This document shows positions 5,459-36,036 of a stretch of 39,429 nt of DNA, in pieces. The translations under genes were made by a program, and so were the position numbers. Positions within the stretch are counted from its first letter, which is position 1. Each line of letters starts with the position of its first letter. Below the pieces are notes generated by a model that saw only the letters and a list, made by a program, of their open reading frames with translations, was not told where the DNA came from and did no database searches. Source of the DNA: a virus; IMG/VR virus record IMGVR_UViG_3300009151_000156, positions 1 to 39,429 of that record; one strand, 5' to 3'.

Positions 5459-6709
5459 TCAGAATGCGCCCGAGATTTGAGACGGCAACGACCGCAAAAG
5501 AGCGGTGGCTTGTTTGAGCTCTGCCAACTGTTGTTTGCTCAACTCCGGCAGACTGTCTCCGGCGCCGCCCACGAAGAGCCCGATCTTTGAAAGCTCGTCC
5601 CCCGGCATCCTGTACCCGGTGTTGTTCCTGGACATTCGAGAGACTCGGTCGATCTCGATTTGCTCCTGTTGGCCCGTGAGCCGCGCGGCGATGAGTGAGC
5701 GCTGATCCGCGACCCCCGCCAGGGCGTTCCGTGTCTTCGCGGACTCCTCGACGTCATCCTTCGATCGGTCCAGATGCTCGTTGAGTTGCTTCTCTTGAAG
5801 ATCGAGGCCCGCCAATTGGTTTCGGGACTCCTCTTCGGCGATGCCGCGGAGCCGCGCCGCGTACCGCTCGTTCGTGATCAATCCGAGCTCGAGCTTCTGC
5901 CGGAGTTGCGCCTTCTCCGTGTCGAACTCCGTCTGGGCGATTTCGGCGAGCACGTGGGCATGGTTCCGGGCGGCCTCTTCCTCCGTTTTATAACTCGTGA
6001 GGACCGCCGCTTTGATTTGCTGGATGAGCTCCGGGATCTTCGCCTGGACTCCCGAGGAGATGATCCCGCCGGCAAACGAGCTCGACCGCGATGCGACCCC
6101 GTTTTGACGAAGGAGGGTGAGAATCGTCTGGTCGAGGTCCTCCGCGTTTCCGCCGCGGAAGGCTCCGCTCGTTCGCCCTTCCGACACGACGCCCCGGAGG
6201 CGGTTTAGAACCTCCGCGTTGTTTCCCGTTTGGGATCCCTGGATCGCGCCGTTGAGCCGGCGCGTTTCCTTCATCTGGTAAAACCCATAGGCGACCGCAC
6301 CGATCCCGGCTGCAGCACCCGCTCCCGCGGCGAGAGCTCCGCTCCCGATCGCGCCCAACTGGGAAACCACGCTCACGAGTTCGCGGAGCCGGAGGATCTC
6401 AATCCCGATGCCGTCGATCCCGAGAACTCGGGAGATGGCCCGGATCTTAAGCTGGGCGTTCGCGAGCTTCTCGTATTCCGCGGTCGTCTGGGAGACGATC
6501 TTCGGCCCGCTCGCCGAGCTCTCGCCGGAATAGGATTTTTTGTCCGCCAGGAATGAAGCGGGGTCCGATGCTAGGTTTGTTGAGGACCGGAAAAACCGCT
6601 GGGCCGACGCCGCCATGTTGTCGAGGCGCGCCGTCGTCGCGTCCGCTTCCTTCCGGACATCCGAGAAGTCGGCTTCGCCTTTGATCTTCAGCGTTCGTTG
6701 GTCGCCCAT
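5459..6709 (-). CDS. Tape measure-like tail protein, short
   Basis: The start MGDQRTLKIKGEADF at 6709 is chosen because it lies 1 base after the previous stop; the frame is open further upstream but there overlaps the preceding gene. The 416-residue protein has a helical N-terminus, a hydrophobic Gly/Ala-rich segment (GALAAGAGAAAGIGAVAYGF, about residues 125-150) and a long charged coiled coil (about 235-345). This architecture and its position after the tail assembly gene fit a tape measure protein, which sets tail length and helps DNA exit. At roughly 0.15 nm per residue the tail would be about 60 nm. It lacks any recognisable lytic domain. Confidence 0.65.
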   Translation of the reverse strand: MGDQRTLKIKGEADFSDVRKEADATTARLDNMAASAQRFFRSSTNLASDPASFLADKKSYSGESSASGPKIVSQTTAEYEKLANAQLKIRAISRVLGIDGIGIEILRLRELVSVVSQLGAIGSGALAAGAGAAAGIGAVAYGFYQMKETRRLNGAIQGSQTGNNAEVLNRLRGVVSEGRTSGAFRGGNAEDLDQTILTLLRQNGVASRSSSFAGGIISSGVQAKIPELIQQIKAAVLTSYKTEEEAARNHAHVLAEIAQTEFDTEKAQLRQKLELGLITNERYAARLRGIAEEESRNQLAGLDLQEKQLNEHLDRSKDDVEESAKTRNALAGVADQRSLIAARLTGQQEQIEIDRVSRMSRNNTGYRMPGDELSKIGLFVGGAGDSLPELSKQQLAELKQATALLRSLPSQISGAF

Positions 6710-6710
6710 A

Positions 6711-7361
6711 TCAGGATAAAGCGCGGAGCCGCGCCTCTTGTGTCGCCGCCCATTCGAGGCGGGCCTTGGTTTCCTGCGGATCGAATGCCCGGCGTCGAGC
6801 GTCCGCTTCGGCTTCCCCTCCGTTCCCGTCGATCGTGAGGACGTTGCGTTCCTCCCATCGGGCGAGCCAAAGCCAATTTGCTTGCGCGACTGGGATGTCG
6901 AGGACCGCCGGCCACGCCACGTTCCATTGAGATGCCAACGCTTGCGCCAAAAGGAGCTCGTGGGGGGTTCCCCTCTTCCCGTCGTCGCTTCCTCCTTCCG
7001 CCTTTTCAAACGGCGGAAGGCTCGCCTCGGAATCGATCCAGTCCTCGATGATGTCGGCGTCCAGGAGATGGCGCCCCGCGCGGCGAATCGTGAACCACGC
7101 GATTGTGAAGCGGCCCCGTCGGGTTCCGATTCCGGCGGCCGCTTCTTGCCATGTCCTCGTGATCACGTACCACGCCATCGCCACTTGGCCGGCGGACGGG
7201 TCCTCCTCCACCCTGGTTGTTAAAAGCGGATTGAATGGGGACCCCAATCGGCGGAGCAACGCGAGATGGCCAAGCGTGAGCGGCCCGAGGCGGAGCCCGG
7301 CGAGGCGCGCAATGGTTGGAACCACTGCGCGCGCAAAACGATCTGACGGGGAATCGATCAC
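6711..7361 (-). CDS. Tail assembly chaperone-like protein
   Basis: The gene sits between the tail tube candidate and the tape measure, the standard slot for tail assembly chaperones (lambda gpG/gpT, Mu gp41-type). The N-terminus contains LRLGPLTLGHLALLRRLGSP, a 'G-P-L-T-L-G-H-x-x-L-L-x-x-x-G-S-P-F' pattern I associate with tail assembly proteins of Verrucomicrobial phages. The C-terminus is Trp-, Arg- and Glu-rich (ANWLWLARWEERNV). I see no evident slippery frameshift into a longer product. Function is by position and pattern. Confidence 0.7.
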   Translation of the reverse strand: MIDSPSDRFARAVVPTIARLAGLRLGPLTLGHLALLRRLGSPFNPLLTTRVEEDPSAGQVAMAWYVITRTWQEAAAGIGTRRGRFTIAWFTIRRAGRHLLDADIIEDWIDSEASLPPFEKAEGGSDDGKRGTPHELLLAQALASQWNVAWPAVLDIPVAQANWLWLARWEERNVLTIDGNGGEAEADARRRAFDPQETKARLEWAATQEARLRALS

Positions 7362-7368
7362 CAGAGGA

Positions 7369-7818
7369 TCAAGAGACCGCCGCCAGGACGCTGGGAACGT
7401 TCGAGGTCGGGGGCCCGGTGCGAATCAGGGTGAGCTTCACTTTCCAAGCGTCTCCCTTGGACGGAGAGATCCCGCCTTTTCCGTCATACGTCCAATCTCC
7501 GTCGATAAATAGCGAGGCCCCAGTACCGGAGAGCGTAACGGTCGAGCCAGCGACCGGAAGCTTCAGGTTTGCTTGAGCTCCGGCAACCGTTCCGGGCACC
7601 GCTGAATCGACAATGATCGCCTCGATCTCGATCGTGTCCTGCGGGTTCGCGTAGGCTTTCGCCATCACGTTGTTGTTGCCGTCGAGGACCTCGACCGATG
7701 GGGTCGTTCGAGAGAACGACATGTTGGCGATTACGTTCTGCGCGGTCGAGAGCTCCGCCGTGAGCATTAAGCCGTTGATTCCGATGTAACAGGCTTTGCC
7801 TGAGATTTTCATGGACAT
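7369..7818 (-). CDS. Major tail (tube) protein candidate
   Basis: This 149-residue beta-rich protein begins MSMKISGKACYIGINGLMLTAELS and contains VAGSTVTLSGTGASLFIDGDWTYDGKG and WKVKLTLIRTGPP. Size, beta content and position between a tail terminator candidate and the tail assembly gene match tube proteins of siphophages. A contractile sheath gene (Mu gpL type) is absent beside it, which argues for a non-contractile tail. A small second Met (residue 3) could also be the start. Confidence 0.6.
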   Translation of the reverse strand: MSMKISGKACYIGINGLMLTAELSTAQNVIANMSFSRTTPSVEVLDGNNNVMAKAYANPQDTIEIEAIIVDSAVPGTVAGAQANLKLPVAGSTVTLSGTGASLFIDGDWTYDGKGGISPSKGDAWKVKLTLIRTGPPTSNVPSVLAAVS

Positions 7819-14104: not shown

Positions 14105-16372
14105 TTAGTTGCGGGCTACTTTTCGGGCCAGCTTCTCAAGCTTTTCGTCGAGCTCCTGGATTGCGGAGACGAAGACCGGGAAGAGCTTCCCGTATCCCGC
14201 CTCAAGCCGGTCCGGGTTCTCGTCATAAACGAGCCCCGGAACTTGGAAGTGTTTCTGTTGAACCCTCTGGAGTTGTTGGGCCATGAATCCGGAGTCCCGG
14301 ATTCCAACCTTGGATCCATCGCGGGATTTCCAGTCAAAGACCCACGGCTCAATGTCGCGCACGAATGCAAGTCCACCGATGAGTCTCCAGAGCTTTTGCT
14401 TGTCCCGCTCGTCCGACAGCGACGTGATCGTCGTGACTTGGCAGCGGAGCGTGGCGACCGAGGAATTCCCGAGCGTGATCTCGTTCGCGATCGTCGCGGT
14501 TGACGGCTGGGCGTTGTACCCGATGCACGTGACGTTTCCGGTTCCTCCGGTGAGACTGGATCCTGCGACGCTGCCAAGCGCAGTGCATTGGCTGAAGTTC
14601 CCGTTCCAAAGTGCGCGATGCCCCACCGCCGAGTTGTCCGTTCCGGCAACGATCGTCACCAGCGCCTGATTCCCGACCCCGGTGTTGTTGGCTCCCGTCA
14701 CGCCGCCGGAGAGGCAGGATTGACCGATTGCGGTGAGCTGCGATGCGGTTGACCCGGCACTTAGCCCCGCCGAGCTTCCCACGACACACGCTGCCGTCGT
14801 CACACCCCTTGTTCCAACAAAGATCCCGCTTATCGTCGAATCGAACGCTGCTGTGAGACTTCCGCAGGTCCAATCCGAATCCCCGGTGTCGTCACCGAGC
14901 CGGGCTGACATTTTCGCAGCACTGACTCTCTTGATTGCCGGATGTCCCGCACTGGCTGCCCCGAAACACAGCCGAGAAAACCCCGTGCCCGCGTTGTTCG
15001 ACAAGATCAGGATCCCGTCGCCGCTCGACTGAATGGTTCCTCGAAGCGTCGTGCTCGTTCCGCTCCAAAACGAATGAGTGCCGGTCTGGTGGACGTCCTT
15101 TGGACGACTTCCGGCCGCGGCCCCAATTGTGTACAGGTTGTCCGTGAACAGGAGATTCCCGGTCAACGTTCCGCCAGCGAGCGCAAGGTAGGTTGCTGCC
15201 GCGGTTGCGCTGGTGATTGAGTCGGTGATCCCGTAGCCCGCCAGAGTCGTTGCCTTGGCAGCGTAGCCGGACGCCACCGCTGCCGCCGTGATCCCGTCGG
15301 TGATCCCGTATCCGGCAAGAGTCGTCGCCTTGGCGGCGTATCCGGACGCTACCGCTGCGGCCGTGATTCCATCGGTGATCCCGTAGCCCGCCAGCGTCGT
15401 CGCCTTGGCGGCGTAGCCGGACGCCACCGCTGCCGCCGTGATCCCGTCGGTGATCCCGTAGCCCGCAAGCGTCGTCGCCTTGGCGGCGTATCCAGACGCT
15501 ACTGCTGCGGCCGTGATTCCATCGGTGATCCCGTAGCCCGCCAGAGTCGTTGCCTTGGCGGCGTAGCCGGACGCCACCGCTGCCGCCGTGATCCCGTCGG
15601 TGATCCCGTATCCGGCAAGCGTCGTCGCCTTGGCGGCGTAGATTGATGTCGCCGCCGTGATCGTGAGGAACGTCCCCAGCGAAGTCGCTAGTCCCGTGAT
15701 CTTGGCGATCGAAAGCGTGAGCCATCCCGGATCGGAATAGGTTCCCGTAGTCACGACCGCATCGGCGATTCCCGCCGCGGCCGCCGTGGTCGGCTTCGAG
15801 CTCAACCACTGCCAAGGGAACGACACAAGCCACGCGGGGTCCACGTAGCGCCCGTTGGTCGAGACGCCGTCGGTGATCCCTGCCCCGTTCAACGTGTTCA
15901 ACGTTGGGGAAGTCGTTGGCCCAATGAGATCACCGAAGAGGCGCGTCCGCGTCGATGCGATCTCCGCGCCTCCGCCGGATTGAATGCTCGGCGTAACCTC
16001 GGGGTTCTGCGGGATCGAAACCCGGAGTTGCCCCAGGGCGACTTGGTGGAGGTCCGCCTCGGCGCGGGTGAGGATTGTCTTCTGCGAATCAGAAAAGGGA
16101 ACGGCATCGCCGAGCCGGATCTTCAACGCCTGGATCACAAGCCAGACGGCATCCTGGAAAAGCTCGGGCGGAATCAGCGTCGCGTCCTGGTCGATCTTGT
16201 TCCCCGGATGGCTCGCGATGAATCCGCGAACCCGAGGAACGACGACCGCGATTGCGTCCAGGACGGGATCCCCTTGAGTGACGGCGAGCGCCGCGGTCCG
16301 GAGTGAGTCGAGCTCCGGCGCCTGCAGCGCGGAATAGACGTCGGCCGTCGTGATGGGAATCCAGTTTGGCAT
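14105..16372 (-). CDS. Fibre: connector-like N-terminus, repeats, S74 chaperone end
   Basis: The 755-residue protein has four parts. Residues 1-130 (starting MPNWIPITTADVYSAL, with VRGFIASHP and a 'IPPELFQDAVWLVIQALKIR' helix) resemble small Mu gp36/DUF1320-type head-tail connector proteins. Residues 250-390 hold six copies of a 25-residue AAKATTLAGYGITDG-based repeat. Then comes a trimeric beta-helix with 'N-T-x-V-G-x-x-A-L' turns (about 515-640). The end (from SDERDKQKL, about 653) is a peptidase S74 intramolecular chaperone domain, which trimerises and usually self-cleaves near the SD. It lies next to capsid genes rather than distal tail genes. Confidence 0.85.
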   Translation of the reverse strand: MPNWIPITTADVYSALQAPELDSLRTAALAVTQGDPVLDAIAVVVPRVRGFIASHPGNKIDQDATLIPPELFQDAVWLVIQALKIRLGDAVPFSDSQKTILTRAEADLHQVALGQLRVSIPQNPEVTPSIQSGGGAEIASTRTRLFGDLIGPTTSPTLNTLNGAGITDGVSTNGRYVDPAWLVSFPWQWLSSKPTTAAAAGIADAVVTTGTYSDPGWLTLSIAKITGLATSLGTFLTITAATSIYAAKATTLAGYGITDGITAAAVASGYAAKATTLAGYGITDGITAAAVASGYAAKATTLAGYGITDGITAAAVASGYAAKATTLAGYGITDGITAAAVASGYAAKATTLAGYGITDGITAAAVASGYAAKATTLAGYGITDSITSATAAATYLALAGGTLTGNLLFTDNLYTIGAAAGSRPKDVHQTGTHSFWSGTSTTLRGTIQSSGDGILILSNNAGTGFSRLCFGAASAGHPAIKRVSAAKMSARLGDDTGDSDWTCGSLTAAFDSTISGIFVGTRGVTTAACVVGSSAGLSAGSTASQLTAIGQSCLSGGVTGANNTGVGNQALVTIVAGTDNSAVGHRALWNGNFSQCTALGSVAGSSLTGGTGNVTCIGYNAQPSTATIANEITLGNSSVATLRCQVTTITSLSDERDKQKLWRLIGGLAFVRDIEPWVFDWKSRDGSKVGIRDSGFMAQQLQRVQQKHFQVPGLVYDENPDRLEAGYGKLFPVFVSAIQELDEKLEKLARKVARN
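15213..15644 (-). repeat. Six 75-bp tandem repeats in the fibre gene
   Basis: Six 75-base units encode near-identical 25-residue repeats. Synonymous differences alternate between odd and even copies: the odd units have GCCGCCGTGATCCCGTCGG, the even units have GCGGCCGTGATTCCATCGG. This makes a 150-base higher-order unit repeated three times and points to recent duplication of a dimer. The lowest-coordinate copy, which is the last in the protein, diverges (ITDS). Confidence 0.9.
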
Positions 16373-26710: not shown

Positions 26711-27007
26711 CTATTGTGAGGCCGCGTCGCACACTTCCTGGATCCACGCGGAAAGCGATTGCCCGTTTTTCTGCGCGGTCTTGACGTACCGGTTTTTCCG
26801 GTCGCGGGTGACTCTCAGGTTGATGTCGTGGTCTGCCGGATCCTTCGACGGTGGACGCCCTGGTGGGTTCGGCGCCGGCCTCGTCAAATGAAGGGTGATC
26901 TTGCTCCCGATTTCCGGAACGGGAAAGGGCGTGGACACTCCGGCGACGTCCCACGCTTGCTCAACCACTTCGAGGAGCGGCGCCTTTTTCTTGCGGGGGT
27001 TTTTCAT
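26711..27007 (-). CDS. Ribbon-helix-helix-like DNA-binding protein, 98 aa
   Basis: The start MKNPRKKKAPLLEVVE at 27007 is chosen; further upstream the frame shadows the zinc-ribbon gene. The C-terminal segment INLRVTRDRKNRYVKTAQK then SLSAWIQEVCDAA matches the RHH (CopG/Arc-like) pattern: a strand, helix, and 'S-L-S-x-W' second helix. It probably binds DNA as a dimer, perhaps regulating accessory genes. The N-terminal half is basic. Confidence 0.65.
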   Translation of the reverse strand: MKNPRKKKAPLLEVVEQAWDVAGVSTPFPVPEIGSKITLHLTRPAPNPPGRPPSKDPADHDINLRVTRDRKNRYVKTAQKNGQSLSAWIQEVCDAASQ

Positions 27008-27074
27008 TCTTGGGTTTGGTTTGATGATCGGCGACCACGCGGGCGGCCACGGGGGCCGCCCGCGGGATCGCTGG

Positions 27075-27332
27075 TCACTCTTCCATGTCGGCGGTCTGAC
27101 AGGGTTCGCACCATTGCCCGCCGCCGGCCAATTCCCGGAGCGGGAAGAGTTCGCCGCAACGGCGGCATTTGCATTTGATTTGAGAGATCCAGAAGTCCTT
27201 CCCAGCGCAGAGGCCGGCAATGTCCGCCGGGATGAGCTCCGAACCGATCAGGACGAACCGTTCGCCGGCGTCGTTCCGTCGGATCTTGTAGGGCTTAGGA
27301 GCGGAGGGTGAGGGGGAGGTTGTTGGGGTCAT
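27075..27332 (-). CDS. Zinc-ribbon protein, 85 aa
   Basis: The C-terminal part has a four-Cys cluster, CKCRRCGELFPLRELAGGG then WCEPC, typical of a zinc ribbon. The first 13 residues are Pro/Ser-rich. The middle (ERFVLIGSELIPADIAGLC) is compact. Small zinc-ribbon proteins of this type occur near phage accessory regions and may bind DNA, RNA or protein. The function is unknown. Confidence 0.65.
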   Translation of the reverse strand: MTPTTSPSPSAPKPYKIRRNDAGERFVLIGSELIPADIAGLCAGKDFWISQIKCKCRRCGELFPLRELAGGGQWCEPCQTADMEE

Positions 27333-28505: not shown

Positions 28506-28531
28506 CAAATGTCCACCTAGGTGGACATTTG
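28506..28531. promoter_or_regulatory. 26-base perfect palindrome (probable operator)
   Basis: The half-site CAAATGTCCACCT is followed directly by its complement, giving a perfect 26-base palindrome centred between 28518 and 28519. It lies 15 bases upstream of the ATG at 28490 and downstream of the minus-strand RHH gene. A zero-spacer site of this quality in the switch region most likely binds a dimeric regulator. It lacks a T-run on either strand, so it is not a typical intrinsic terminator. Confidence 0.7.
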
Positions 28532-28583: not shown

Positions 28584-29048
28584 CTAAGGAGGGGAAGGTT
28601 TTGGTTTGCTCATCGCTGATTGTTTTGGAGCCGGCGCTTGAGCGATCGACCCGATCCCTTTCTCTTTGTGAATTGGATGCGGTCGCTCGGCTTTACTCAC
28701 GCTGGGCGACTCAACTTGAGGCGAAGATTCTCCTTTTGCGCGCGGCTGAATGCCTGCGGCAAGAACACCAAGCTTCGCCAGCGCTTCCCGCTTCCCCTCG
28801 GAATTGACCGGGGAACTCCCGAGCAACGATTCCGAACTAGGGATTTGCGCGGCCCCGGCGCTTCGGATCGGTCGCACCAAGTCCGCAAGCGACCCCACTT
28901 CCTTCCGCTCCTGGAAATCTTTCTCGATCAGGAGCGAGACGTACTTCGAGAAACTGATCCCCATACTCAAAGCCCTTGCCTTCCCACGAGCGAGGAGATC
29001 GTCGTCGGTGAAACTGAGGCTTGTGTTTGTGTACCGCGGCTTGGCCAC
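28584..29048 (-). CDS. Ribbon-helix-helix regulator, possible repressor
   Basis: The start is GTG at 29048, preceded by GAAAGGG. Residues 1-50 (YTNTSLSFTDDDLLARGK, then MGISFSKYVSLLIEKDFQER) match the RHH (CopG/Arc) fold: a strand followed by two helices, with 'S-F-S-K-Y-V-x-x-L-I-E-x-D'. Residues 55-154 are a low-complexity, Ser/Pro-rich tail. It is divergent from two plus-strand RHH genes, so it is the best candidate for the lysogeny repressor or an early-late switch protein. Confidence 0.7.
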   Translation of the reverse strand: MAKPRYTNTSLSFTDDDLLARGKARALSMGISFSKYVSLLIEKDFQERKEVGSLADLVRPIRSAGAAQIPSSESLLGSSPVNSEGKREALAKLGVLAAGIQPRAKGESSPQVESPSVSKAERPHPIHKEKGIGSIAQAPAPKQSAMSKPKPSPP

Positions 29049-29107
29049 AGGCCCTTTCTATCGCCCCCAAAAACGGATCCGCAAGTTTCGGTTGACTCTT
29101 ATCAAGA

Positions 29108-29126
29108 CTTATTAGAACTTAATAAG
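29108..29126. promoter_or_regulatory. CTTATTA-N5-TAATAAG operator in divergent promoter region
   Basis: An inverted repeat of 7-base arms (CTTATTA at 29108-29114, TAATAAG at 29120-29126) sits 3 bases before the ATG at 29130. It lies in an AT-rich island between divergent RHH genes, whereas the rest of the window is GC-rich. A TTGACT at 29092-29097 could be a -35 box for the plus direction, but no good -10 was found at the usual distance. An RHH-type operator is the natural reading. Confidence 0.6.
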
Positions 29127-29129
29127 ACG

Positions 29130-29318
29130 ATGGCGATCACAACAATCCACGTTCCGGACGAGGTTTTGGCGAAAGGGAAGACTGCTGCGAAGGAGGACGG
29201 TCGCAGTTTTTCAAAACACGTCTCCCGCCTCTTGGAGCGCGACCTGAAAACAAAACCCCATGCCGACGAACCGACTAGGAAGCGGGACCGCAAACGTTCC
29301 GATCAATTGGCTGAATGA
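29130..29318 (+). CDS. Ribbon-helix-helix protein, 62 aa, first plus-strand gene
   Basis: The start ATG at 29130 gives MAITTIHVPDEVLAKGKTAA, then EDGRSFSKHVSRLLERDLKT, an RHH pattern closely similar to that of the divergent minus-strand RHH protein (SFSKH-V versus SFSKY-V). The frame is open upstream but that shadows the minus gene. It heads the early block and overlaps a third RHH ORF by 59 bases. A Ner-like or antirepressor role is inferred. Confidence 0.7.
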   Translation: MAITTIHVPDEVLAKGKTAAKEDGRSFSKHVSRLLERDLKTKPHADEPTRKRDRKRSDQLAE

Positions 29319-29535
29319 GGAACGCGAAGTCATCGGACGCCTTGCGTCCGCGGCCGACCAAAGCTTCGGCTCATTCGTTCGGACTCTGGTTGTCGAGCGA
29401 CTCCAGCAAGTCCACCCCGACGCAGCACTCAAGATCGTTTCCGTTCGCTCGGAACGCAGACTGACCCGCCTTCGGATCACTCTTTCACTTTCCCAATGTC
29501 CTCCGCCCTCCAGCAATCCTTCCGGCTTCCCCTGA
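29260..29535 (+). CDS. Second plus-strand RHH-like protein, 91 aa
   Basis: Residues 12-50 (ANVPINWLNEEREVIGRLAS then SFGSFVRTLVVERLQ) look like an RHH fold, 'S-F-x-x-F-V-R-x-L'. The ATG at 29260 lies within the end of the 62-residue RHH gene in another frame (59-base overlap), and I see no better start nearer to the RHH core. The end overlaps the next ORF by 40 bases. The last 15 residues are low-complexity, so the true end of the fold is around residue 70. Confidence 0.5.
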   Translation: MPTNRLGSGTANVPINWLNEEREVIGRLASAADQSFGSFVRTLVVERLQQVHPDAALKIVSVRSERRLTRLRITLSLSQCPPPSSNPSGFP

Positions 29536-29927
29536 CTCACGAAGTTAGCCTCGTGAGCCTGGACACTGTCGGCGCGGAGATGGGTTGGCACATTGATCAC
29601 GTCAACGAATGGGCGGTCGAGCAATGGGCCTTCGACCTCTCCTATTCATCGCTCCGGAGAAAAGAGATCCGGGTGTGGATCCGATCGCTTCGCGATTCCG
29701 AAGCGGCCCGCAAGGCAACGCCGAACGAGGTCATCGAGTCCGTGATCGGAAGCCCGCTCATGGACACGGTCCGAGCGGCCAGCCTCGAATCTCGGTGGCG
29801 CCTCAGCGGCATCACCCTCTCACGTCTCCGCCGTGACGAGGAAATCTTCGGCGAGCAAGTCGGCCACTCCTGGTGGCTCACCCGCTCAAGCCTCCGCGCT
29901 TTCCTTGAGCGTCGTCTCATCCGTTAA
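29496..29927 (+). CDS. Putative DNA-binding early protein, 143 aa
   Basis: Segments LDTVGAEMGWHIDHVNEWAV and RLSGITLSRLRRDEEIFGEQ then VGHSWWLTRSSLRAFLERRL have a HTH-like 'x-x-S-x-L-x-x-L-R-R' followed by a 'W-W-L-T-R-S-S-L' pattern reminiscent of excisionase or MerR-like DNA binding folds. A later start (MGWHIDHVNEW, 29580) would avoid the overlap with the previous ORF. It precedes the DUF3102-like gene. The role is not established. Confidence 0.6.
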   Translation: MSSALQQSFRLPLTHEVSLVSLDTVGAEMGWHIDHVNEWAVEQWAFDLSYSSLRRKEIRVWIRSLRDSEAARKATPNEVIESVIGSPLMDTVRAASLESRWRLSGITLSRLRRDEEIFGEQVGHSWWLTRSSLRAFLERRLIR

Positions 29928-30615: not shown

Positions 30616-32766
30616 ATGGTCCTTTCCACCGACAATTCCACAGCCCCCGCTCGGGTCCTTTGTTTCGAGATCCCCGAGTCCGATCGCTCGGATTTTCACG
30701 CCCTCGCCGCCGAGGTTCAGCGGGACGTCTTGGCGCGCCTGGAAGCGATGCGGACGATCTCCGCGGCGCGGTCGGTTCGGGACGGAGCGATCCGCGTCTC
30801 TCAATCCATGGGTGGAATCCGCGGTTGGTCTCCGGCCCGGCTTCGGTCTCAGTGGTCGGAATTCTCAGTCGCGGGAACTTGGCGCGCGCTTCTCAATTGC
30901 GCGAAGGCGGGGCCCGCCCACTACCGATCCGCGGGACACGTCGAGGATCTCCCCGCCGCATCCAATCCCGCGTTCCGCGAATTCGTAAAGGCGGAGATCG
31001 AGCGATGCCAACGCAACGGCGGCCAAGCCTACCGATCGCTCCTTTCCCGATGGGCCCGTTGGAACGCCGGAGAATCAAAAGCGGCCATCCCCGGTTACTC
31101 GATCTGCCCGCCGCCCGCCGCTCACGGCCTTCACCCTGTCGGATGGGGCCGCGATAACATCATGCGGATGAGTCCCGACCGCGCCGACCTCACGCGCGCC
31201 CGGCAGGGCCAGCGGGCCGCCTCTCATTTCCGGCCCGCGGTTCTCACGACTCGCTTCGGTGTCTCCGTTGGGGAGTACCTTCAATTCGACGACGTCGAGT
31301 TCGATCTCCGCGTCAACTTTCCGGGCCAACCTCAAGCGATGCGGCCCCGCGGTTTTTTTGCGCTCGACGTCCTCTCCGCTTGTGACGTTGGGATGTTTTG
31401 GAAGCCGACCCTCTGGGATGAGGAGGCGAGCAAGAAGAAGACCTTAACCGAGCGGGACTTCCTCTGGTTCGTGATTCATACGATGATGAATTGCGGCTAC
31501 CGATCCGACCACTTGGGAACCCAGCTCATCTGGGAACACGGGACCGCCACTGTCCGCGATCGCTCGTTCCTCTCGACTCTCGAACAAGTGACAGGGGGCC
31601 GCGTGCGGCGCGCCGTGTCCGGGATCATGGGCGTTGAACAGATGGCCGGAATGTTTGAGGGGACCGGTCGGGGCAATTTCCGTTTCAAGTCTCACCGAGA
31701 ATCCCTTTTTGGTCTTCTCCACAATTACTTCCAGCAGCTTCCCGGACAGGTTGGGTTAAGCCGCGACCGTTCCCCGGAACAACTCGTCGGCCTCGAACGG
31801 TACAACAAGCAGATCCTCGCCCTCGTCCCGACCCTTTCCCCGGACCGCGCGCCGGATCTTCGTTTCCCCGTTTTGTCGTGGGATCAATTCAACGAGGCGG
31901 CCCTCCGCTTGTTGGATCAGATCTCCACCCGGACCGACCATGAGATGGAAGGCTGGGAGCGTTGCGGTTTCGTCCAAACGTTTTGGAGAATCGCCGACAA
32001 CCAGCAGTGGATTTCCGAGGACGAGTTCGCGGCATACACCGAAGTCCAGCGCGCGGCGATCACTACCCTTGTCTCTTCGGAGCCGAGCCGGTTTCGGCAA
32101 CTCCGGAAGATGTCCCCCCGGCAAGTGTTCGATCGGTCCCGTCACGAGTTGACCCGGATTCGACACGACCAACTGCCGGTCCTCCTCAGTCACCGGGCCG
32201 AAGAACTCGGGCGAGAGGTAACGGTTCGCCGCGGGATGATCACGATTGATTCCGAGGAGTTCGGTCCCGATCCGATCCATTTTCAAGCCCTGGACGCCCG
32301 CCGGGGATCCGGCCATCGGTTGGCGGAGGGTTCCAAGTTTTTGGCCTTCCTCAATCCCATCGCGCCGACCCATCTCGTCGCCTGCGATTCCGCGATGAAG
32401 ATTTCCGCGATCTGCCAATTCTGGGACCGCCCTTCTCGGAACAATCTCGACGCCGTCGGGGCCATGATGGGCCGCCAGCGGAAACACGAGAACGCGGCGC
32501 ATCGAGATCAGGACGCGCGACACTCCGGGTTCGCCGCCGAGCACGCCCGAATGCTCAAGCACAACGAAGACGTGGCCGCCGGACTTCCCACGACTCCGGA
32601 GGACCGGGCCCGCGCCCGAGACCTCGCTGAACAAGTCGAGGCCCACGGCGCCGAGGCGGTCGCCGACATTCTTTCCTCTCCGGAGGCTCCGATCGAATCC
32701 CCCGCAACGGGCGACGACATCTCCGGCGAGGACTTCCTCTCCGACATCTCGACGCCTCGGGAATGA
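30616..32766 (+). CDS. A: MuA-type DDE transposase
   Basis: The 716-residue protein has an RNase-H-like catalytic core. QFDDVEFDL (first acid D225 or D226) is followed by LIWEHGTATVRD (second acid, E307) and FKSHRESLFGLLHNYFQQLPGQVG (third acid, E362). The 55-residue gap between the second and third acids matches that of MuA (56). The second acid is Glu, not Asp; I recall 'EHGTA' in Verrucomicrobial Mu transposases, so it may be lineage-specific. The N-terminal 170 residues should bind the end repeats, and the acidic C-terminal tail (from about residue 660) probably contacts MuB. It catalyses replicative transposition. Confidence 0.9.
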   Translation: MVLSTDNSTAPARVLCFEIPESDRSDFHALAAEVQRDVLARLEAMRTISAARSVRDGAIRVSQSMGGIRGWSPARLRSQWSEFSVAGTWRALLNCAKAGPAHYRSAGHVEDLPAASNPAFREFVKAEIERCQRNGGQAYRSLLSRWARWNAGESKAAIPGYSICPPPAAHGLHPVGWGRDNIMRMSPDRADLTRARQGQRAASHFRPAVLTTRFGVSVGEYLQFDDVEFDLRVNFPGQPQAMRPRGFFALDVLSACDVGMFWKPTLWDEEASKKKTLTERDFLWFVIHTMMNCGYRSDHLGTQLIWEHGTATVRDRSFLSTLEQVTGGRVRRAVSGIMGVEQMAGMFEGTGRGNFRFKSHRESLFGLLHNYFQQLPGQVGLSRDRSPEQLVGLERYNKQILALVPTLSPDRAPDLRFPVLSWDQFNEAALRLLDQISTRTDHEMEGWERCGFVQTFWRIADNQQWISEDEFAAYTEVQRAAITTLVSSEPSRFRQLRKMSPRQVFDRSRHELTRIRHDQLPVLLSHRAEELGREVTVRRGMITIDSEEFGPDPIHFQALDARRGSGHRLAEGSKFLAFLNPIAPTHLVACDSAMKISAICQFWDRPSRNNLDAVGAMMGRQRKHENAAHRDQDARHSGFAAEHARMLKHNEDVAAGLPTTPEDRARARDLAEQVEAHGAEAVADILSSPEAPIESPATGDDISGEDFLSDISTPRE

Positions 32767-32795: not shown

Positions 32796-33854
32796 ATGAA
32801 CGAAGAACCCCAAGAAAGTCTGGTCCCGCAAGGATTCAGCCCCAAGACAATCACTCACGCCGCCGGAGACATGGTCAATAAAGCGACGGCGGACCTTCCA
32901 GAGGATCAAAGGAGCGCGATCCGATGGCTTCACAACCACGCCTGGGAACAGTCCCTTTCTCAGGAGGCGACCGCCAAGCTCATCGGATACAGCGGCGCCG
33001 CGGTTTCCCAGCTTTTCAGCGGGAAGTATTCCACGCTCGAACCGATCGTGGCCTCGATCGAATCCTACCGGAAGCTCTGGACCGATCGACAGGCGGGGAA
33101 GGGGATCCCGTTCATTGAGACGTCGATGTCCAAACAGATCTGGAACGTTTGCCATGGGGCCCGTAAGTTTCAGCGGGTCGGACTCATTTATGGGATTTCC
33201 CAGATCGGGAAAACGGCCGCCTTGAAGGAGTATGAGAAGGCTTTCAATCACGGGTCCACGATCCGTGTTGAGGTTCCCACCGGCGGATCGCTTGGGAGTT
33301 TCCTGATCGCCTTGGGATGCCGTCTCCGACTCTCGCCGTCCCTTAGCGACCGCGACTTGAAACGCCGGATCATTGAGGCCTTCGACGACAAAATGGTTTT
33401 GATCGTGGACGAGGCCCACCGAGCGATCAGCCCGACAGTGACCCGCGGCGGGATCCTCACCCTTGAGTTTATCCGCGAACTCTTCGACACCGCCCAATGC
33501 GGGTTGGTGATTTGCGCGACCAACGTTTTCCGGCGCGCTCTTGAGGAGGCCGGTCCAGCGCACGAGCTCTTGAAACAAACCCACCGGCGCCGGTTCTGTC
33601 AGCTTCAACTCCCGGACCAACCCAAGCGGAAAGACATCGACGCCATCTCCGCGGCCTTCGGTCTCGAACCAAGCGCCGGTGAGGCGCGGGTTCTTGAGGA
33701 GCGGATCATCGCCGAGGACGCCCTCGGAATGTGGATCATGCTTCTCAGAATGGCCTCCGAGATGGCCGCCAAGAACAAGCAGCCACTCTCTTGGAAACAC
33801 GTCCAGCGCGCCCATCTCGGCAGGCTCCGGATGGAGAGCGGTTCAGAGGAGTAA
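32796..33854 (+). CDS. B: MuB-like AAA+ ATPase
   Basis: The 352-residue protein has an N-terminal HTH (SQEATAKLIGYSGAAVSQLF, 55-74), Walker A GISQIGKT (133-140), Walker B VLIVDEAH (201-208) and a sensor-like GLVICATN segment. This layout (HTH plus AAA+) is that of Mu B / TniB-IstB proteins, which bind target DNA and stimulate the transposase. It follows the transposase by 29 bases. The C-terminal helical part (RMASEMAAKN) may contact MuA. Confidence 0.9.
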   Translation: MNEEPQESLVPQGFSPKTITHAAGDMVNKATADLPEDQRSAIRWLHNHAWEQSLSQEATAKLIGYSGAAVSQLFSGKYSTLEPIVASIESYRKLWTDRQAGKGIPFIETSMSKQIWNVCHGARKFQRVGLIYGISQIGKTAALKEYEKAFNHGSTIRVEVPTGGSLGSFLIALGCRLRLSPSLSDRDLKRRIIEAFDDKMVLIVDEAHRAISPTVTRGGILTLEFIRELFDTAQCGLVICATNVFRRALEEAGPAHELLKQTHRRRFCQLQLPDQPKRKDIDAISAAFGLEPSAGEARVLEERIIAEDALGMWIMLLRMASEMAAKNKQPLSWKHVQRAHLGRLRMESGSEE

Positions 33855-34217: not shown

Positions 34218-34341
34218 CGCGGCCCTGTGCTTCGTGGCCGCCTATGCGGTCGTCGCTGTTATTCTCCCAATCTCTTTCCTTCTCTCCTCACTCATCTCTT
34301 CCCGAAAAAGGAATTCCAACCTCTTCCGCCTCCACAAATGA
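34210..34341 (+). CDS. Tiny membrane protein, 43 aa
   Basis: A short ORF starts within the previous gene's end (ATG at 34210) and stops in a 4-base ATGA overlap with the Gam-like gene start at 34338. The product, MDDAALCFVAAYAVVAVILP then ISFLLSSLISSRKRNSNLFR, has one strong transmembrane helix and a basic tail. Both overlaps support it being real. The function is unknown. Confidence 0.65.
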   Translation: MDDAALCFVAAYAVVAVILPISFLLSSLISSRKRNSNLFRLHK

Positions 34342-34883
34342 ACCCCACTCCCGTATTGATCCAAATTGAGAAATCCGCCTTCAACCTTTCGGCGGTCCGC
34401 AACGAACTGAAAGGTGTTCTCGCCGCTCGACAGATTCAGATCGAGGACGCCGACGCCAAGTTCCTCCCCCGCATCCGGGCGTTGGCTCGAATGCTCACGG
34501 GTCGGATCGATGAGTTGACGACGCTTGTTGACGAAAACCGCGCCGAGTTCGCGAGTCCACGCACCCGCGTTTTCCACGAGATCAAGGTCGGGTTGACCAA
34601 GCAACGCGGGTCCCTGGAAATCCCAAACGAGGAGGCCACGATCGCGAAGATCCGGAAAAGCTATTCCCCGGAGTTCGCCGAGGCGCTCCTCAACGTCACC
34701 ACGACGCCCAACAAGAAAGCCCTCGAATCCCTTTCTCCCGCGGAGCTCAAGAAGCTAGGCGTTGAGATCGCGGGGGCGACCGACGCTGTGATCGTGAAGC
34801 CCATGAACGGCGAGGTCGACAAGCTCGTGGACTCGATCCTCAAGAAGGCCGTGAGCGAGGCGCTCGGAGAGGGGGCAGAATGA
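34338..34883 (+). CDS. gam: Host-nuclease inhibitor Gam-like protein
   Basis: The ATG at 34338 lies in a 4-base overlap with the upstream tiny gene; an upstream in-frame Met would overlap it. The 181-residue protein has an N-terminal coiled coil and TTLVDENRAEFASPRTRVF, KVGLTKQRGSLEIPNEEAT and AVIVKPMNGEVDKLVDS. The order coiled coil, 'N-R-x-E', 'K-V-G-L-x-K-x-R-G' and 'I-K-P' fits Mu Gam family proteins, which bind DNA ends and block exonucleases such as RecBCD. It follows the A and B genes as in Mu. Confidence 0.7.
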   Translation: MNPTPVLIQIEKSAFNLSAVRNELKGVLAARQIQIEDADAKFLPRIRALARMLTGRIDELTTLVDENRAEFASPRTRVFHEIKVGLTKQRGSLEIPNEEATIAKIRKSYSPEFAEALLNVTTTPNKKALESLSPAELKKLGVEIAGATDAVIVKPMNGEVDKLVDSILKKAVSEALGEGAE

Positions 34884-35481: not shown

Positions 35482-36036
35482 ATGAGCGCCACCATGATTT
35501 CCGACGAAGAGGTTGTTCGCTCCCTGGAGCGCCAACGCGTTTTCTCTCCATTCGATGAGCTCAGAAAAGCCTCGATCGAACTTCAGCGCCTCGCCGATTC
35601 GATCCTGTTTCAACTGGACGGAACTCTCAATTTAACGACCCCGGAAAAGCGTCCTCGGATCATTAGCAAACGGCCGGAGCCCCGATCCGTCGCCCTTGAG
35701 GTCGCGCGCCTGTTTGATCTGCCGGTCGAGGCCCTCCTCGTGAAGACTCGGCGCCGCCGATTCTTTGACGCTCGGATCACCGCCTATTGGTTCTCATGGC
35801 GTCTTTCGGAATGCTCCCAAGAGGAGGTCGGGGTTTCCTTCGGCGGGTTGGACCATTCAACGATCGTCAAGGGAACCCAAAAGCTCCGCCAACTCTTCGA
35901 GGCGGACGTTCATTTCAGGGTCCGCCATCGGGAGGTCGAGGCGCGCCTTTGCGCTCTCTTCGGATTGCGCCCCGTCCTCCCTCCTGAAGATCAGCGGAAC
36001 CCGCTCGTTGCCAACAAGACCTTCACGTTCCTATGA
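35482..36036 (+). CDS. DnaA domain IV-like protein, 184 aa
   Basis: Residues 70-140 match the DnaA C-terminal DNA-binding domain: VARLFDLPVEALLVKTRRRR, FFDARITAYWFSWRL, then VSFGGLDHSTIVKGTQKLRQ. The signature is F-G-G-x-D-H-S-T (residues 120-127). DnaA domains I-III, including the ATPase, are missing. In DnaA this domain binds DnaA boxes, so the protein may bind oriC-like sites to recruit or inhibit host replication, or bind the phage itself. It is an early gene. Confidence 0.8.
   Translation: MSATMISDEEVVRSLERQRVFSPFDELRKASIELQRLADSILFQLDGTLNLTTPEKRPRIISKRPEPRSVALEVARLFDLPVEALLVKTRRRRFFDARITAYWFSWRLSECSQEEVGVSFGGLDHSTIVKGTQKLRQLFEADVHFRVRHREVEARLCALFGLRPVLPPEDQRNPLVANKTFTFL

Follow-up and report, generated by a model that had tools for sequence, protein, structure and literature searches.

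A divergent pair of ribbon-helix-helix genes as a putative stand-in for the c/Ner switch of a Mu-like phage

In the textbook case, the lysogeny switch of a phage is a circuit of HTH proteins. The question raised by the locus considered here is whether a Mu-like phage can have ribbon-helix-helix (RHH) proteins in the place of the HTH regulators c and Ner. The DNA analysed (the window, below) is the whole IMG/VR virus record IMGVR_UViG_3300009151_000156 of 39,429 bases. The first-pass annotation had described a minus-strand RHH gene divergent from two overlapping plus-strand RHH genes, and had proposed that the three could form a new lysis-lysogeny switch replacing the standard HTH one.

The plus strand of the window encodes a MuA-like transposase, the main product of the early run (30616..32766; phrog_310, E 2e-11), a MuB-like ATPase (32796..33854; phrog_296, E 9e-28, with AAA_22 and a weak match to Phage-MuB_C) and a Mu Gam-like end protection protein (34227..34883; phrog_491). 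The minus strand carries the portal, terminase, head and tail genes. Considering this arrangement, we assign the window to a transposable (Mu-like) phage. A tblastn search of 50,697 phage records gave no match to the MuA-like protein, the named phages being without a relative of it, and the MuB-like protein has remote matches only (about 25%) in known Mu-like phages. By these comparisons, the phage of the window is a divergent member of the Mu-like group, distant from all named ones. Since relatives occur in Verrucomicrobiota (an Akkermansiaceae bin and Akkermansia muciniphila), the host probably belongs to this phylum. The source is a metagenomic contig, and the phage is presumed to be temperate. 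The closest relative used is L003 (MuA 77% identical); the near-identical record IMGVR 3300010158_000214 was left out of the independent evidence. Compared with that record, the window has repeats of about 150 bp at 15222-15640, inside a tail-spike-like gene (14105-16372), which appear as shifted self-matches.

The absence of a Mu c or Ner-like protein, on which the original proposal relied, is confirmed: among all window ORFs of at least 40 aa none is c- or Ner-like, the best E-value being 0.61. Putative divergent regulators stand at the head of an early run of the ner-A-B-gam type, and it is RHH genes, rather than HTH c and HTH Ner, that fill the slot. The minus-strand gene, RHH1 (28584..29048, 154 aa), begins with GTG at 29048; this start is credible because the Shine-Dalgarno-like AGAAAGG upstream of it (29053..29059, minus strand) is kept in L003. 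On the plus strand, RHH2 (29130..29318, 62 aa) is Arc/CopG-like and is the first early gene; it has no evident Shine-Dalgarno sequence, and its transcript is possibly leaderless. It is overlapped by a third gene (29260..29535, plus strand, 91 aa), which also overlaps the gene that follows. All three are real genes since they are conserved in L003, where their order and strands are unchanged, with 58% identity and dN/dS 0.28 for RHH1, 73% and 0.17 for RHH2, and 69% and 0.07 for the third gene (where dS is near saturation). Thus the gene layout was described correctly at the outset, including the GTG start and the two overlapping plus-strand ORFs at 29130 and 29260, and all three genes are kept in L003.

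Whether these are RHH proteins is a separate matter. The fold is assigned from sub-threshold profile matches, those of RHH2 being DUF6364 (2e-4), RHH_5 (0.0066) and Arc-like PHROGs (0.001), all under the curated cut-offs where such are given; sequence searches against solved structures gave nothing usable. RHH1 alone has no match in the RHH family profile searches and is counted as RHH-like because it is similar to RHH2. The similarity covers both helices (16 of 31 residues identical, 52%; pairwise E 9e-9), and the profile comparison of the two gives 93%. By these measures RHH1 and RHH2 are sister proteins (paralogues). The RHH-like domain of RHH1 is N-terminal (aa ~6-48) and is followed by a Pro/Ser-rich tail; the domain is under stronger constraint than the tail (dN/dS 0.15 vs 0.35).

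Two observations concern the minus strand beyond RHH1. A perfect 26-nt palindrome, CAAATGTCCACCTAGGTGGACATTTG, lies at 28506-28531, in the gap that separates RHH1 from the following gene on the minus strand; its L003 equivalent (~7360-7386) is CAAATGTTGCCC-TG-GGGCAACATTTG, with the same outer arms and compensatorily changed inner pairs, and an RNA hairpin or a second regulatory site is possible there. In addition, the last 40 residues of a minus-strand ORF at 26711-27220 are RHH/NikA-like (E 0.06).

Judging by its dN/dS, purifying selection acts on the third gene, which belongs to the window clade only (the window and L003). The sub-threshold RHH-family matches are DUF6290 (E 0.18) for the window protein and MobA (0.008) and the RelB antitoxin (0.06) for the L003 copy. 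The profile comparison with RHH2 is negative, and the AlphaFold2 model is unusable (mean pLDDT 54), as is that of the protein encoded from 29496 (45). In view of the weak profiles, the failed alignment with RHH2 and the poor model, we regard the third as a genuine early gene whose product is at most weakly RHH-like. The claim of three RHH genes therefore holds for three genes, two of which can be called RHH-like.

One could read RHH2 and the third gene as a type II toxin-antitoxin operon, an RHH antitoxin followed by its toxin, with RHH1 as a separate regulator. The overlapping gene order is typical of such pairs, and RHH2 has weak matches to antitoxin families (VAPB_antitox 0.011, FitA-like 0.073), its nearest solved chain by sequence being VapB26 (E 1.3). 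However, the toxin families gave no match to the third protein, which leans weakly to RHH families instead, the gene occurs in the window and L003 only, and the RHH1/RHH2 pair is divergent, shares a putative operator and stands in the c/Ner slot. We consider the toxin-antitoxin explanation highly improbable.

One can also suppose that repression is in fact the task of an HTH protein encoded elsewhere in the window and that the RHH proteins have a different early function. Two genes come into question, both with HTH-type matches. The first (29496..29927, plus strand) has a weak excisionase/HTH_17-like match and, with 85% identity to L003, is the most conserved small early gene. The second (35482-36036, in the early arm) encodes a product matching the DnaA C-terminal DNA-binding domain (PF08299, E 2e-10), which could be a replication or late-transcription regulator. 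Against this stands their position, since both lie on the plus strand inside the early run, away from the boundary. HTH_17-like genes in a similar position are found in the relatives L074 and L090, which have an HTH switch and no RHH pair, and also in L093, which has an RHH pair; being present with and without the pair, they look independent of the switch type. For this reason, the gene at 29496-29927 is probably not the switch, and a repressor of this kind elsewhere in the window seems quite unlikely to us.

We return to the reading in which RHH1 and RHH2 are the regulators, and to the DNA between them. The first-pass annotation had pointed to the palindrome CTTATTA-N5-TAATAAG abutting the early gene. 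It is indeed present at 29108-29126, 3 bp before the RHH2 ATG, in a single copy in the window (zero expected). The repeat and palindrome signal of the window is suggestive when compared with shuffles of the AT-rich intergenic region (p~0.08). The palindrome lies inside three tandem 10-bp units, CTTATCAAGA CTTATTAGAA CTTAATAAGA (29098..29127, plus strand), which we regard as the putative operator. The corresponding units of L003 are CTTATTAAGA CTTATTAGAA CTTAATAGCA, with a period-10 repeat significant against intergenic shuffles (p=0.002), whereas the right arm of the palindrome is broken there (TAATAGC). The exact palindrome was therefore dropped as the binding unit. Because L003 keeps the units and loses the exact palindrome, the putative operator is better read as a 10-bp-periodic array across the probable early promoter; what does not survive of the original description is the single palindrome as the operator. 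Conservation is stronger evidence for this element than the palindrome statistics: between the window and L003, 36 of 40 positions are identical at 29090-29129 vs 11 of 27 at 29062-29088 (p=2.4e-5).

In arrays of RHH dimers such as the Arc and MetJ-type operators, a 10-bp period often sets successive sites on one helix face. By analogy, the period found in the window would align its successive sites in the same way. TTGACT at 29092..29097 (plus strand) is a candidate -35 element of the early promoter; it was chosen post hoc and is suggestive. Of 8 distinct RHH loci, 7 have a TTG 26-42 nt upstream of the start of the plus-strand RHH gene (also a post hoc count), and a sigma-70 consensus scan gave no promoter on the early (plus) strand.

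The evidence that bears most directly on the question comes from 43 related MuA loci, taken from viral contigs and Verrucomicrobiota prophages. MuA relatives occur in 41 of 387 Verrucomicrobiota genomes; the genome scan with a three-row MuA alignment gave none of them, and they were retrieved with an L004-type alignment. Up to 9 kb upstream of MuA was taken from each locus, and all ORFs were searched with RHH, c-like and Ner-like models. A divergent pair of RHH genes, one on each strand, lies at the early/late boundary in nine loci (the window, L003, L018, L019, L020, L026, L028, L082 and L093), or eight if the window and L003 are counted as one. In the relatives, the RHH proteins have matches to PF01402 (RHH_1), several of which exceed its cut-off. 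In 28 of the 43 loci (for example, L024, L061, L065, L069 and L080), the slot is held by a c-like HTH gene on the minus strand and/or a Ner-like one on the plus strand, as judged by HTH models seeded from the same surveyed loci, which form a phylogenetically non-independent sample. A Pfam check of 10 sampled slot HTH proteins gave HTH matches for nine. The two types of pair are never found together (0 of 43; Fisher p=8.9e-6, in which independence is overstated since the rows are related).

On the 43-row MuA tree, the type of switch needs six changes, at least five of them forced by well-supported branches. Sister phages can differ in type: L025 (HTH) and L026 (RHH), and L083 (HTH) and L082 (RHH), both with 100% SH-aLRT. 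In the former case, the genes flanking the exchanged block are homologous on both sides. Three loci, L076, L078 and L079, have a Ner-like HTH gene and then a CopG-like RHH gene in the same direction upstream of MuA; this mixed order is possibly an intermediate between the two types.

Operator-like sequences in the relatives vary. Near-perfect palindromes lie just upstream of the plus-strand RHH gene in L018 (CTCAATCATATT-C-AATATGATTGAG), L019 (CAATATATACC-C-GGTATATATTG) and L093 (GGTGTAATAAA-G-TTTATTACACC), with none of 1000 shuffles as good. A weaker 7-5-7 palindrome precedes the plus-strand gene of L082 (p=0.011), and L028 has a 10-bp tandem repeat (p=0.006) and no significant palindrome. 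By the shuffle test, the upstream regions of L020 and L026 contain no significant operator-like repeats.

Since the two types occupy the same slot, never occur together and have replaced each other at least five times, even in sister phages, we believe that the RHH pair most likely replaces c/Ner. The exclusion in the slot and the swaps are the strongest evidence, among these comparisons, for the RHH pair doing the job of c/Ner. The proposal that RHH proteins take the place of the HTH switch thus gains strong comparative support (28 HTH loci vs 9 RHH loci, never both), for two genes and not for three. In our opinion it is fairly probable that the regulatory switch of this Mu-like phage consists of RHH1 and RHH2, standing where the HTH regulators c and Ner would be.

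The pair could instead be an accessory module of the immI type, running its own small operon only, while some other repressor, so far unrecognised, silences the transposition genes. Precedent is found in P22, where immI has the layout mnt / arc-ant, with Mnt and Arc controlling ant (PMC2629481, PMC8022706), and among the loci surveyed here, as in L018 an Ant-type anti-repressor gene (phrog_130, E 4e-20) comes next after the plus-strand RHH gene. In the window, however, no Ant follows RHH2, which is the first gene of the run leading to MuA, MuB and Gam. No c/Ner-type repressor that could do the silencing was found in the window, and the L018 record yields a single, weak match to the Ner model, by the protein in the MuB position. 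The mutual exclusion of RHH and HTH pairs in one slot also counts against an accessory role, and we hold this explanation to be unlikely.

Under the preferred reading, with RHH1 and RHH2 as the switch, the following mechanism can be proposed. At the 10-bp units (29098-29127), RHH dimers would sit side by side along one helix face, each reaching into the major groove with its two-stranded beta sheet. Since these units separate the candidate -35 (TTGACT, 29092) from the RHH2 start, their occupancy would shut the early promoter, which is presumed to drive the run from RHH2 and the small early genes to MuA, MuB and Gam. By their strand and position, RHH1 would be the protein that keeps lysogeny and RHH2 the one that acts on the lytic programme, promoting or limiting it. 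RHH1, transcribed leftward from the shared region, would be the maintenance repressor, a putative equivalent of c. RHH2, the putative Ner/Cro equivalent, would act in the manner of those proteins, binding the RHH1 site or one overlapping it and turning down its own operon, RHH1 or both. It is tempting to go further and to regard the locally duplicated pair, competing for one 10-bp array, as an all-RHH bistable circuit of the CI/Cro type that would be the only lysis-lysogeny switch in these transposable phages and could be exchanged freely with HTH c/Ner; this fuller version is offered tentatively, as a possibility that we rate below even.

As to the origin of the pairs, the RHH proteins of one locus can resemble each other far more than those of other loci. 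The Smith-Waterman score of the window RHH1 is 79 with its own RHH2 vs at most 34 with RHH proteins of other loci, and for the L082 pair the values are 101 vs at most 45. Local duplication would give such likeness, and so would a constraint on both proteins to recognise the same DNA. The plus-strand proteins of L018, L019, L020, L028 and L093 can be recognised as one family although their loci sit on distant MuA branches, so that the module may travel between phages. That all RHH pairs are one homologous module is not supported for the window pair, which is missed by a model built from the RHH proteins of other loci; RHH pairs may therefore have entered the slot more than once.

If the preferred reading is correct, one phage family has swapped the whole DNA-binding class of its putative switch at least five times, retaining its place and the operon. 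The pairs L025/L026 and L082/L083 are natural matched pairs in which one can ask what a switch needs besides a fold. The c/Ner slot is also a concrete place to search for immunity genes in temperate phages where no HTH repressor has been found.

In P22, mnt and arc-ant point in opposite directions. A shared control region flanked by two small divergent genes for RHH repressors is common to P22 immI and, with RHH judged by sequence and repression putative, to the window, L003 and the seven other loci; operators lie in this region in P22 and, putatively, in the window. Divergent phage RHH repressor pairs are already known, and the kind of system is not the new one first suggested as possible; in the open-licence papers searched, no account was found of such pairs replacing c/Ner in transposable phages. 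Unlike the window pair, which stands at the head of the transposition operon, where the primary switch would be, the P22 pair is secondary and controls ant beside a lambda-like primary switch. An Ant gene at the RHH locus is absent from the window and present in L018. In the Mu-like phage record L004, an Ant-type anti-repressor gene (5648-6310) comes right after the plus-strand RHH gene, in the P22 order. In the published accounts, the P22 immI region, which comprises the RHH repressor genes mnt and arc together with ant, lies in the late operon and provides secondary immunity (PMC2629481, PMC8022706). The RHH protein F55 of SSV1 keeps lysogeny via tandem repeats at early promoters (PMC5569661); unlike the window, this is an archaeal virus with one RHH protein and no divergent paralogous partner. 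The predicted Arc-type RHH protein YosL of SPbeta is implicated in the lysis-lysogeny system (PMC10516654); in contrast to the window pair, it has no divergent partner and promotes the lytic cycle beside the master repressor MrpR. With Mu c/Ner and the c-like/Ner-like pairs of Verrucomicrobiota, the window shares the slot, the divergence, the control region between the genes and the A/B/gam run downstream, and differs in having proteins of the RHH rather than the HTH class and operator units of 10 bp.
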